NCBI GenBank assembly: GCA_947468275.1
Contig: CANIKO010000005.1
Coordinates: 62,001 to 126,000, forward strand
DNA: 64,000 nt
DNA from: Bacteroidota bacterium
GTDB taxonomy: Bacteria > Bacteroidota > Bacteroidia > NS11-12g > UBA9320
Direction: 5' to 3'
The notes beneath the pieces were generated by a model. It searched no databases. It saw nothing but the letters and a program-made list of their open reading frames with translations, and was not told the DNA's origin. Each line of letters starts with the position of its first letter. The first letter of the stretch is position 1. Positions 47,636-55,076 of this stretch are shown one piece after another. The translations under genes were made by a program, and so were the position numbers.

Positions 47636-49060
47636 TTAATGTTTAACTATTAACTTTTTATTCTCACTCATAAATTGAGAAGTATAAACCTTATAAAAAT
47701 ATAGTCCTTCTGTTAAACCAGTAATATCAATTTCAAAATTGCCTGAAGTACTTTCCAACTCAAATTGTTTAACAATTTGCCCGTTGATATTTGTAATTTC
47801 AAAGATGGGTCGTTCAGTTGAATTGGTTTTTATATCATAAATAATCCTAAAATTAGTTGCAGTTGGGTTGGGCATTTCTGCAAAGGAATTTTCAATTGTT
47901 TTAGAATTCGAAATAGGAGTTATTTGGTTATCATCAGGTTCAAAAGATAAAGTGTCTTTTCCTCTGAGTTCAACATCAAAATCCCCGTAGCCAAATTTGC
48001 AGTTAGATGTCCAAGCTAACAATGTGCTATCAATTGTTGAAGAATCAAAAGCTTCAAAATTCCAAACATAATTAATTGATTGAGTTGTGGAATCAACAGC
48101 CACATTTTCCAATTCTTCTTTGTAAACAACTTCTTCAGATTTAGTTGATTCAATAGTTGGCGGGATAAAAACTATATTTTCATCATATACAATTTTTTGC
48201 GTTGGAAGTTTAATAATTGCCAAATTGTTACTTTCCCAAGTGCCCAACCCATAAGTAAGTGAAATTATCCCTAACTCAGTATTTACAAAGGGTTGGTAAT
48301 AATTTTTATCAGAATTAATTGTTGAGTCAAGAATAAAATATTCAGGGTTGCCGAATTCTGAGTTAAGATTTGGGCGAGTTAGTTTAACCAATAAATTATT
48401 TTCATCTCTTAATGTAAGATAATAGGATAGGCCCTCATCTGCTAAACTTCCGGGGCAATAGTTTTCCGCGTTATTCATAAATGAATTAAAAGAATAATTT
48501 ATACCATCGGTGGTAGTGAAAAAAGCAATACGTTCAATTGAATGTTCATCATTATAATAAACGAATAGTTGGCTTAAGTCTGCAGTTAATGAAGGCCCTG
48601 AAATAAAAACACTTGAAGTTTCTGAAATTTCTCCACCTGTTAAATTTATTTTTATAGGATTATTAAAACTTTTACTTGTTTCGTCATAATTGGCCTTATA
48701 AAGAGTAGTCATAAAACCATCTGAATTTTTATGGGTTACAAAAAATACAGTTTGTTCATCCTCAGTTAACCAGCAAGAAAATACATCATAATCGCCAACC
48801 ATCCCATTAATAGCAACGGTTTTCGGATTTATAAATTCATCTTTAAGGCGTTTTCGTTCAGCTTTCCAAATTTCATCCGATGACTTATCCCGAGTAAAAT
48901 AAAGCCGCAAACCATCTTTTGAGAGCCAAGAATAAGCATCCGCTTTTTCCTCCTGATTAAGCGGCATATTTTGAGGTTCATAAACTATTCCATCTGCCGG
49001 TTGAGCCATGGTAGCTAGGCTGCAAATTAAGCTTAGAGTAAATGCGAAAATTGATTTCAT
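47636..49060 (-). CDS. secreted PD40-like protein with T9SS sorting domain
   Basis: Signal peptide; DAYSWLSKDGLRLYFTRDKSSDEIW beta-propeller-like repeats; C-terminal EMPNPTATNFRIIYDIK...GLYFYKVYTSQFMSENKKLIVKH. Confidence 0.8.
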   Translation of the reverse strand: MKSIFAFTLSLICSLATMAQPADGIVYEPQNMPLNQEEKADAYSWLSKDGLRLYFTRDKSSDEIWKAERKRLKDEFINPKTVAINGMVGDYDVFSCWLTEDEQTVFFVTHKNSDGFMTTLYKANYDETSKSFNNPIKINLTGGEISETSSVFISGPSLTADLSQLFVYYNDEHSIERIAFFTTTDGINYSFNSFMNNAENYCPGSLADEGLSYYLTLRDENNLLVKLTRPNLNSEFGNPEYFILDSTINSDKNYYQPFVNTELGIISLTYGLGTWESNNLAIIKLPTQKIVYDENIVFIPPTIESTKSEEVVYKEELENVAVDSTTQSINYVWNFEAFDSSTIDSTLLAWTSNCKFGYGDFDVELRGKDTLSFEPDDNQITPISNSKTIENSFAEMPNPTATNFRIIYDIKTNSTERPIFEITNINGQIVKQFELESTSGNFEIDITGLTEGLYFYKVYTSQFMSENKKLIVKH

Positions 49061-51965: not shown

Positions 51966-51990
51966 CTTCAAGGGTTTCAAACCCTTGAAG
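51966..51990. repeat. 25-bp perfect palindrome
   Basis: CTTCAAGGGTTT-C-AAACCCTTGAAG. Confidence 0.85.
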
Positions 51991-52014: not shown

Positions 52015-54345
52015 TTATTCCTTAATCAAAATCCGTTCATTAAATATATCTCCTTTATCGGTTGTAATTCTTAATAAATACAAACCGGCAGTTATACCGG
52101 CCGACGAGAGTTCTTTTTGGCTGATGCCTTGTTTCATTTTGCCTATCGGAAATTGTTTAACTTCGGCACCGTTTAGGGCAAACATATAAACCAATACTGA
52201 GCATTCTTCCTTCAAATCCAGTTTAAGGTTAAAGTTATCCTTAGCCGGATTGGGAAATACGGAGTACTTAGTAATGGCTTTGCTTTTGGTATTTTGGCAA
52301 GCTTCAAAGTAATTGCATGAAACTACACTTTTGCCATCGCAGGTTGAATCGGTGGTAAAGGTTATTTTAGAACGGTTGCATGTCAAGGCCACAATATCCT
52401 TTCGTATTTCATTGGCAGTTTTGGTATCCAGTATTTTTAGGAATTTTTCAGTGGGTTTATACCAAAATATAATATTAGGACGATTTTTTTTAGTTAGTGC
52501 ATCCATCGTTGAGTAAGTTTGCCCTGATTTTACCAACACAGGAATTAGGTCGTAACTAGAAATTTTATCGATGACATATGTGATTGAATCAAACGAAGCT
52601 CTTGACCATGTTCCCAAATCATCTGATAACCAAGAAGGCTTTATGTAGCTGGACGAATCAAAATTATCAAGGGGAATATCCAGTTTTATTTCAGTCGCAT
52701 ATTTTTTAAATATTAGTTCTGCGGCCAATTGTTTACCTGATTTTTTGTCAAGTTTATAAGGGATAGGTATTCTTTGAAGGATTGTACTATCAACAACACG
52801 TATTAAAAGTTTTGCTAATTGGGCTTCACTTAATGTTATGGTTTTGATAGAAGATGAATTTGGGGTTTTGCTATTTGCTACCTCCTCAAATGATTTTTCT
52901 TCGGGTAATTTTGTGTTTAAATTAATCCCTTTTAGCTTATCTTTATTGTCCTCGGCATACTTCGCAATTCTAATTCGGTCTTCCGTATTTAGCTCATTTA
53001 AGATAGCCTTATTTATTGTGTACCAAAATATATTATTTGTGGTGTCTCCTGTTATCCAAAGTCCAACTAAACCAAATTTTTTGTTATTGAAATCTTGAAG
53101 TTCATTTAATTTATTGTAATCCGGGGTCAATTCTCTAATTGCTCTTAGATAATTAATGCTTTGTTTGGAGGGGTTATAGGATGCCCAAAATTCAGGAAAC
53201 ATTGTAGAAATAGATTGTTTAGAATTATCCTGATTGGCTATACCAATGGTTATTCCTCCATTATCATTTCTATAATCTATAGAAAGTTGACCTCCTTTTT
53301 CTGTATGCCGGAAATAAACAATTGGCTTAGAAGACTGAAACCCTAACTTTTTTAAAAGGCTTTCATCTGCAATCACAATTTGGTTTTTATCAATTGGAAT
53401 AGCTTCAGGTGTATATTTAATTTCTTCCTTCCTTTTGTTTTTATCAGTTAGCGTATGTGAATAATAGTTTTTATCAAAGTTTAGATTCTTTTGGATTCGG
53501 CTTGGTAAAAAATTATGTAACGTATCATTCATCTCAAACCAAGCTATGTAAGGCTTTCCTTCTTTTGATGTTTCATCTTTTACCCATACCGGTAATAATT
53601 TTTTAGAAATTTTAATAATATAATCATCCGAATATTTTTTTGAAATATATATAGGTTTTATAATATCTCCTTTTGAATCGGTAACAAATTCAGCTAGTGG
53701 ATTTTTGCGTCCTGGACGATCACATGTTGACATGCTACTTATATAATTGATATTATCTGTGGTTTTATAACCTACACTAAATTTAATATTTCCAAGTCTA
53801 GTATTATCCATTTCATACATAAAAACATCATCCTTAATATAAATTCCTAGCTTTTTAAGTTCTTCCTTAGTTAGGACGACAAAAGTGTTCTTGTCAAAAG
53901 AATTGGTGGTGCTATTGGTATTAATTATTTCCGGTCCTACTTGGCTTTTCGCAATTATTTTCTTCTTTTTTCCCTTGTCATAAGCCACAGGTTTGGACTT
54001 GGCACTATAAGTAATTTCAGGCGGAGAAATTGGTGTCTGCTTGACTTCCTCTATTTCGGGTAACGAATTTTTTAAAGGTTCAATAGCTGTTTTTGCAATT
54101 TGTAATGGTGGTTTTTTATAGGTTTCTTGGTTTGAATTAGCATAAAATACTATGGTGGCAGCTATGCCTATTAGTGTTGAAATTGTCATGGCTTTAATTT
54201 TTAGGTTTATAAACTTTTGATAGTTATCGGTTGGTGTCTTCACCAGTCGACCATTAATTAATCCCTGAATTTCGTTAGAATTCAATAAAACTTCCTGTTC
54301 TCTGGCCAGATTGAAAAGCTTGTTTAATTGTTCTTCATTTTGCAT
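52015..54345 (-). CDS. single-pass membrane anti-sigma-like protein with triplicated module and C-terminal T9SS sorting domain
   Basis: Short cytoplasmic N-terminus, TM AMTISTLIGIAATIVFYAN (aa 52-70), three diverged repeats, C-terminal YSVFPNPAKDNFNLKLDL...GLYLLRITTDKGDIFNERILIKE; ATG 2 nt after the ECF sigma stop. Confidence 0.75.
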   Translation of the reverse strand: MQNEEQLNKLFNLAREQEVLLNSNEIQGLINGRLVKTPTDNYQKFINLKIKAMTISTLIGIAATIVFYANSNQETYKKPPLQIAKTAIEPLKNSLPEIEEVKQTPISPPEITYSAKSKPVAYDKGKKKKIIAKSQVGPEIINTNSTTNSFDKNTFVVLTKEELKKLGIYIKDDVFMYEMDNTRLGNIKFSVGYKTTDNINYISSMSTCDRPGRKNPLAEFVTDSKGDIIKPIYISKKYSDDYIIKISKKLLPVWVKDETSKEGKPYIAWFEMNDTLHNFLPSRIQKNLNFDKNYYSHTLTDKNKRKEEIKYTPEAIPIDKNQIVIADESLLKKLGFQSSKPIVYFRHTEKGGQLSIDYRNDNGGITIGIANQDNSKQSISTMFPEFWASYNPSKQSINYLRAIRELTPDYNKLNELQDFNNKKFGLVGLWITGDTTNNIFWYTINKAILNELNTEDRIRIAKYAEDNKDKLKGINLNTKLPEEKSFEEVANSKTPNSSSIKTITLSEAQLAKLLIRVVDSTILQRIPIPYKLDKKSGKQLAAELIFKKYATEIKLDIPLDNFDSSSYIKPSWLSDDLGTWSRASFDSITYVIDKISSYDLIPVLVKSGQTYSTMDALTKKNRPNIIFWYKPTEKFLKILDTKTANEIRKDIVALTCNRSKITFTTDSTCDGKSVVSCNYFEACQNTKSKAITKYSVFPNPAKDNFNLKLDLKEECSVLVYMFALNGAEVKQFPIGKMKQGISQKELSSAGITAGLYLLRITTDKGDIFNERILIKE

Positions 54346-54347
54346 AA

Positions 54348-54893
54348 TCAGGATATTGCTGTGTTTGTTTTTAATACATTTATAGGGTTACTCAAAATGT
54401 CGCGATCCGGCTGCAGCATGGTTTCCAACTTTTTTCGTCCTCTGTAAACATTGGTTTTGGCCGTGTTCAGGTTTATTTGCATTATCTCCGAAACTTCAAC
54501 AAGGGTGCACCCCGAAATTTCAAATAAAACAATGGCCTCGGCCTCGTCAGGCTTTAGTTTACCAATGCAGCGATAAAGCATGTTTAAAGAAATGGCGTCG
54601 TCTGTTTTTATGAAGCTTTCCTTGTCATGTGCTTTTTCCAAGCCGGTAAACTGAAGTATTTTCTTTCGTCTCAATTTCTTTTTGAACAATCGGCCGGCTA
54701 TGCCAAACAAAAAATATTTAAACTTTTCAGGTTCACGCAACTTCTCAAATCCCTCAAATGCTGCCAACACCGTTTCACTCATCAAATCTTTAGCATCCTC
54801 TTCATCCACCATCAGTGCACGACAGTAATTACTCAATTCGCATTTTAAGTTTTCGTAGAGTAATGTAAAGTGTTCCTTTTTGTCCTGCTGCAT
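54348..54893 (-). CDS. ECF-type RNA polymerase sigma-70 factor
   Basis: LCELSNYCRALMVDEEDAKDLMSETVLAAFEGFEKLREPEKFKYFLFGIAGRLFKKKLRR (region 2) and EAIVLFEISGCTLVEVSEIMQINLNTAKTNVYRGRKKLETML (region 4). Confidence 0.92.
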   Translation of the reverse strand: MQQDKKEHFTLLYENLKCELSNYCRALMVDEEDAKDLMSETVLAAFEGFEKLREPEKFKYFLFGIAGRLFKKKLRRKKILQFTGLEKAHDKESFIKTDDAISLNMLYRCIGKLKPDEAEAIVLFEISGCTLVEVSEIMQINLNTAKTNVYRGRKKLETMLQPDRDILSNPINVLKTNTAIS

Positions 54894-55035: not shown

Positions 55036-55076
55036 AAAAACAAAAACCCCTCACAATTTTTGAAACTGTGAGGGGT
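55036..55076 (-). terminator. intrinsic terminator downstream of gyrB
   Basis: Minus strand ACCCCTCACAGTTTCAAAAATTGTGAGGGGTTTTTGTTTTT. Confidence 0.85.

Follow-up and report, generated by a model that had tools for sequence, protein, structure and literature searches.

An extracytoplasmic function sigma factor gene paired with a predicted inner-membrane protein ending in a type IX sorting domain in Bacteroidota

The 64,000-nt stretch of Bacteroidota DNA analyzed here (contig CANIKO010000005.1, positions 62,001 to 126,000; hereafter the window) contains a two-gene unit on the minus strand, consisting of a gene for an extracytoplasmic function (ECF) sigma factor (54348..54893) and, after a gap of 2 nt, a gene for a 776-aa protein (52015..54345), its putative anti-sigma factor, which is referred to as the partner. 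The sigma factor is a small protein of 181 aa that possesses sigma-70 regions 2 and 4 only, as expected of an ECF sigma factor, and both regions matched their Pfam families above the gathering scores (Sigma70_r2, 8.8e-10; Sigma70_r4_2, 1.4e-12). The assignment is further supported by NCBIfam, by profile matches in the PDB to the solved ECF sigma factors SigW, SigH, CnrH and RpoE, and by its clade in the sigma factor tree described below. The partner was characterized by its open reading frame, its family matches, an AlphaFold2 model and a family of 37 intact partners. Terminator-like hairpins, each followed by a T run, are located on the minus strand 3' of the partner gene (51966..51990, 11 pairs) and between gyrB and the sigma factor gene (55046..55076, 14 pairs), and thus delimit the unit to these two genes.

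The partner is predicted to start with a cytoplasmic module of two short helices (aa 1-49; 54199..54345, minus strand as for all following features), which is presumed to be the sigma-binding part and for which the N-terminal alignments yielded the motif LxxLFxxAR...L...E(I/V)xxLI. It is followed by a transmembrane (TM) helix in N-in orientation (aa 52-70; 54136..54192) and a periplasmic tether (aa 74-149; 53899..54126) predicted to be disordered, with a predicted local distance difference test score (pLDDT) below 50 throughout. In the AlphaFold2 model, which was built on the 37-member alignment, helices were placed at aa 4-15 and 23-32, and a longer helix (aa 41-71) contains the TM segment. 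Three periplasmic repeats follow: repeat 1 (aa ~151-300; 53446..53895), found as a second match of the repeat profile within the window protein (E 4.1e-5 and 3.2e-7), repeat 2 (aa ~316-480; 52906..53400), which is degenerate and was recognized by inspection of the pattern LLKKLGF ... IFWY, and repeat 3 (aa 498-660; 52366..52854), an 'LGI...LIPVLVK...FWYxPTxxFL' domain modeled with a pLDDT of 87 and a predicted template modeling score of 0.83. A C-x-Y-x3-C motif (C677-C683; 52297..52317) directly precedes the C-terminal domain; both cysteines are invariant in 11 Bacteroidia members of the family, and C-x5-C is present in 10 of the 37 members phylum-wide.

The protein ends in a type A C-terminal sorting domain (CTD) of the type IX secretion system (T9SS; aa 696-776; 52018..52260), which matched Por_Secre_tail (PF18962; 2.5e-8, aa 696-773) and TIGR04183 (2.1e-8, aa 696-775), both above the curated cut-offs, and no other known domain was identified in the partner. 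The CTD was modeled as a beta-sandwich with a pLDDT mostly above 90, and its many Ig-like fold matches included the CTDs of PorU and mirolase. Such Ig-like matches to the CTD also dominated the fold matches of the full-length model, in which the repeats were moderately predicted. The partner gave no sequence match in the PDB, and the model of repeat 3 no PDB fold match at an E value below 0.001; the LGI/FWY repeat domain may thus possibly represent an undescribed fold. The adjacency of the two genes with its 2-nt gap, the N-terminus of about 50 aa, the TM helix and the type A CTD had all been named in the original prediction, and were confirmed by the reading frames, Pfam/NCBIfam and AlphaFold2.

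The original prediction had further called for a survey of other Bacteroidota for sigma factor genes followed by genes for N-in TM proteins with a CTD, and this survey was strongly positive. It was carried out with profiles that excluded the CTD: profile A1 ends before this domain, and profiles A3 and A5 lack the CTD, the TM helix and the N-terminus. A total of 40 loci were read, at which 37 intact partners occurred; as the members are homologous, the counts do not represent independent events. An ECF sigma factor gene was located directly upstream in 38 of the 40 loci, at a distance of -20 to +64 nt and most commonly of -4 nt (ATGA overlap). Of the two exceptional loci, one is truncated where its contig ends (G387, L057), and in the other (G367, L056) the partner is not beside its own sigma factor gene, possibly due to a broken assembly. 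All 37 intact partners are encoded next to a sigma factor gene and possess the hydrophobic TM segment, which begins between aa 37 and 81 (median 51), with a positive-inside charge distribution in 34, compared with a median start at aa 5 among 14 ordinary CTD proteins of the window genome. Por_Secre_tail was recovered in 36 and TIGR04183 in 35 of the 37, although the partners share only 15-24% overall identity with the window protein.

The family occurs in 16/396 and 19/396 genomes of the phylum sample, and one genome (G819) possesses six paralogous pairs. SprA was present in all 29 tested genomes that carry the family. Several members show additional features. The periplasmic part contains a TonB C-terminal domain (TonB_C) in two partners (L118:1479-3482 in G721; L119:1397-3331 in G713), and the partner of G613 (L121:2150-4483) carries two CTDs, one internal at about aa 400-477 and one terminal. 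In six loci tested against Pfam (L111, L112, L115, L124, L125, L129), a gene for a VIT-domain protein starts 12-17 nt 3' of the partner gene, with an additional VWA domain in two of them, and the same arrangement is probable at L128; at L120, L126 and L131, a gene for a YCF48/BNR-like secreted protein takes this position. These VIT-domain and YCF48/BNR-like genes are likely operon partners or targets.

Profile A5, a wider one, identified 12 further places. Seven of these have an adjacent sigma factor gene, in one case with a GTG start of the partner overlapping the sigma stop codon; one has a sigma factor gene about 1 kb upstream (G721:C128), one is degenerate (G553:C15), and three have no sigma factor gene on the fetched stretch. 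The homologues at these three places (L244:1753-2580, L247:1582-2475, L248:1659-2759) combine a classical signal peptide with a CTD and the repeat domain of the family, and are likely true T9SS cargo relatives. The contrast is a telling one: judged by their N-termini, proteins encoded with a sigma factor appear to have the signal peptide replaced by a two-helix module and an uncleaved-looking TM helix, whereas those without a sigma factor look like ordinary cargo. The partners thus share with type A cargo the C-terminal CTD of TIGR04183/PF18962, but differ from it in that cargo has a cleavable N-terminal Sec signal peptide, while the partners have an extension of 36-80 aa and an N-in TM helix and are encoded with a sigma factor; in the window protein, the hydrophobic segment lies at aa 52-70 and is followed by no conserved cleavage site.

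In a tree of the 38 pair-linked sigma factors with 14 other sigma factors of the window genome and 11 from type B CTD pairs of relatives (see below), the pair-linked sigma factors, picked via their partners, formed a single clade with an SH-like approximate likelihood ratio test (SH-aLRT) support of 99; the tree was a quick one with some long branches. The closest comparison is provided by a genome of the same genus (G004), in which the pair occurs in the same clpB-gyrB setting with a sigma factor 80% identical to that of the window. In the G004 ortholog of the partner (L038:6519-8856), the reading frame is broken by a frameshift next to an A9 tract, representing either a sequencing error or phase variation. 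Between the two, the ratio of nonsynonymous to synonymous substitution rates (dN/dS; approximate, as determined pairwise on short segments) was 0.05 for the TM helix, 0.08 for the CTD, 0.09 for the sigma factor and 0.14 for repeat 3, whereas the tether, repeat 1 and repeat 2 reached 0.35-0.41, repeat 2 being the fastest evolving (48% identity). The CTD is thus under purifying selection, indicating that it is kept for a function and is no decoration.

From these results, we consider it probable that the partner is the cognate single-pass anti-sigma factor of the ECF sigma factor, that its far end is addressed to the T9SS and that it acts as a trans-envelope sensor which would free the sigma factor upon a change. 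The original prediction that the partner resembles a membrane anti-sigma factor was supported by gene order, since the gene directly follows that of the ECF sigma factor, by co-inheritance, and by the predicted topology of a cytoplasmic N-terminus and one TM helix. The sequences provide a co-inherited pair, a predicted N-in single-pass topology, a tether and a genuine, constrained CTD; from these, we infer binding of the sigma factor by the N-terminal 50 aa, recognition of the CTD by the T9SS, a signal and proteolytic release of the sigma factor. The two-helix N-terminus would hold the sigma factor at the inner membrane, where the single TM helix would anchor the partner. The long disordered tether would cross the periplasm, and the CTD, preceded by the sensor repeats, would target the distal end of the partner to the T9SS at the outer membrane. 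A changed state of this docked end, such as a ligand bound to the repeats, lost docking or removal of the CTD, would be the trigger for regulated proteolysis of the partner, by which the sigma factor would most likely be freed. Given the length and variability of the sensor part and its occurrence in paralogues, with six pairs in G819 and TonB_C domains in G713 and G721, we favor an outer-membrane or surface sensor anchored via the T9SS over a pure gauge of secretion.

Several observations weigh against this interpretation. A profile of the N-terminus found no anti-sigma domain among its PDB matches; as solved anti-sigma domains thus offer no relative by sequence, the proposed sigma binding is deduced from gene order and topology. 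No anti-sigma family in Pfam/NCBIfam matched the window protein, and among the 37 members, a single one (at 9.5e-4) matched NF052375 'anti-sigma factor'. With 37 bits, the CTD of the window protein ranks among the lower-scoring CTDs of its own genome, and one partner with an adjacent sigma factor gene (G239) has no CTD. The distribution of the family is patchy, with members in 8 of 108 genomes of the order, and among 47 genomes in which the pair is not known to occur, SprA was likewise found in 42, so that co-occurrence with the T9SS is not discriminating. Furthermore, we know of no experimental precedent for the engagement of a TM-anchored protein by the T9SS.

Among known systems, the closest parallel is provided by the Dma anti-sigma factors, which consist of an N-terminal anti-sigma domain, a TM helix, a disordered tether and a C-terminal beta-barrel, are encoded beside ECF21 sigma factors and are restricted to the Bacteroidota (PMC13088901). 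The EcfO and BcpT-responsive pairs are similar (PMC13088901, PMC9308784), and pairs related to Dma respond to envelope stress (PMC9308784). The pairs described here share with Dma the ECF sigma factor beside the partner, the single inner-membrane TM helix, the long disordered tether, a C-terminus addressed to the outer membrane and the occurrence in Bacteroidota. The N-terminal part is likewise in the anti-sigma position, the sigma binding of the partner being putative. However, the partner ends in a T9SS sorting domain instead of a beta-barrel and has folded periplasmic repeats before it. It gave no match to OMP_b-brl, with PF18962 at the C-terminus in 36 of the 37 members, and its sigma factor falls outside the clade of those sigma factors of the window genome whose partners end in a barrel. 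Membership in Dma was therefore rejected for lack of a barrel and for the different sigma clade, and Dma was retained as a model of the mechanism.

Three further ECF sigma factors of the window genome are each followed by a single-pass protein with a weak to moderate match to OMP_b-brl_2 and a predicted, Dma-like barrel (L142:25-1374, L146:1967-3280 and L147:224-1453; PF13568 at E 2.5e-4, 6e-7 and 6.2e-4, respectively). Another ECF sigma factor of this genome is followed by an anti-sigma-like protein that ends in a type B CTD (L143:624-1478, G000:C6:21787-22641, minus strand; PF13585 at 4e-13, TIGR04131 at 2.4e-7, under its own cut-off), and type B CTD pairs recur across the order with their own sigma factors (L184-L200, L203, L207, L208, L210). 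The sigma factors of the type B pairs nest with those of the barrel type (SH-aLRT 95). On at least two occasions, anti-sigma-like proteins thus appear to have acquired a T9SS tag as an outer-membrane address.

Further comparisons concern the way in which the sigma factor may be bound and the combination of a CTD with a sigma factor. The anti-sigma factor CnrY of Cupriavidus metallidurans is a short protein with a single TM helix and, to our knowledge, has no outer-membrane-directed domain. CnrY is a class II anti-sigma factor that wraps the sigma factor with two helices (PMC7406223), and two helices are also predicted in the partner, although its N-terminus has no detected sequence similarity to solved anti-sigma domains. 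In Porphyromonas gingivalis, the CTD protein PorA and the ECF sigma factor SigP act in one signaling path with PorXY; however, PorA has a signal peptide, acts upstream of PorY/PorX and is not described as an anti-sigma factor of SigP (PMC7712824), while in the present pairs the partner has a membrane anchor and its gene lies with that of its sigma factor.

The architecture may also be read in a more far-reaching way, in which the partner is a permanently tethered T9SS substrate whose repeats and CTD pass through SprA and are displayed on the surface while the N-terminus still holds the sigma factor, so that T9SS docking, cleavage by PorU or an outside ligand would switch transcription. We regard this as possible yet doubtful; if true, one polypeptide would span the cytoplasm, the inner membrane, the periplasm, the T9SS channel and the surface. 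About equally tentative is the secretion-status model of the original prediction, which may be read such that the CTD serves as a decoy substrate. If the T9SS were to engage this decoy, become jammed by it or cleave it, the anti-sigma factor would be changed and would signal how loaded or how healthy the machine is, perhaps with feedback on the latter. The strong constraint on the CTD is in line with this proposal, as is PorA of P. gingivalis, which functions above PorXY-SigP in the regulation of T9SS genes, with such a feedback proposed by the authors (PMC7712824). However, PorA is restricted to Porphyromonas and carries a signal peptide, the long and varied sensor domains would be superfluous for a pure decoy, and six paralogous pairs in G819 fit a diversity of ligands better than the readout of a single machine status. 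In addition, envelope stress or surface glycans are the presumed signals of the Dma analogues, and varied sensor domains suit the sensing of ligands or of the surface at least equally well.

It is unlikely that the CTD is a mere Ig-like periplasmic domain, inherited from a captured cargo ancestor and kept for folding or dimerization with no contact to the T9SS. The existence of cargo homologues with a signal peptide and the same domain and CTD does make the periplasmic part look cargo-derived; G613a carries an internal CTD besides the terminal one, and an anchor in the inner membrane seems to conflict with export. However, an inert domain would hardly be expected to stay recognizable and C-terminal in 36 of 37 members as divergent as these, and a general selection for an outer-membrane address is indicated by the pairs with a type B CTD and by the anti-sigma-like proteins of the window genome that end in a beta-barrel.

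Still less probable is a reading of the hydrophobic segment as a signal peptide with an extended n-region and of the partner as an ordinary T9SS cargo whose gene is merely a target of the sigma factor, for which the cargo homologues with classical signal peptides may be invoked. The extension of about 36-80 aa with its conserved two-helix motif accompanies the sigma factor, with a normal signal peptide where the latter is absent, the TM segment is nearly invariant, and the Ala following it (FYA/NS) is Val in the G004 ortholog, so that the putative signal-peptidase site is not conserved. This explanation was therefore rejected on the N-terminal motif, the positive-inside charge and the absent conserved cleavage site. 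Finally, a chance juxtaposition is hardly credible, since, although the window genome (3.3 Mb) has at least 150 CTD proteins and 16 sigma-70 genes above the family cut-off, by which we estimate about one such neighbor per genome to be expected by chance, the pairing is kept across families and beyond the class with often overlapping reading frames and monophyletic sigma factors, and the gene order, the topology and the CTD reappear in relatives throughout the phylum, with purifying selection on the CTD.

The T9SS core genes gldJ, porP, porU and porV are located at 35.2-43.0 kb of the window, about 9-19 kb from the pair, confirming the proximity noted in the original prediction. This closeness is probably a coincidence; T9SS core genes were not noticed around the pairs in other genomes, where the stretches read were mostly 5-16 kb long. 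Just past clpB, the window also encodes an ordinary secreted protein with a signal peptide and a type A CTD (47636-49060).

No description of a sigma factor paired with a type A CTD membrane partner was found in the open-access literature, and the pairing looks like a real, undescribed wiring of the cell surface to gene expression. Only about 6% of the ECF sigma factors of Bacteroidetes have a recognized class I anti-sigma domain in their neighborhood (PMC7406223). The family of CTD partners represents a recurrent candidate controller for ECF sigma factors with no recognized anti-sigma factor, and it shows T9SS sorting domains in proteins predicted to reside in the inner membrane, a location unforeseen in the standard cargo model. 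Together with the barrel-ended and type B CTD pairs, it suggests as a general rule that anti-sigma factors of Bacteroidota often carry an outer-membrane address in the form of a barrel, a type A CTD or a type B CTD. A class of proteins annotated as T9SS substrates would then probably be regulators, providing a candidate link between the state of the surface or of secretion and transcription.

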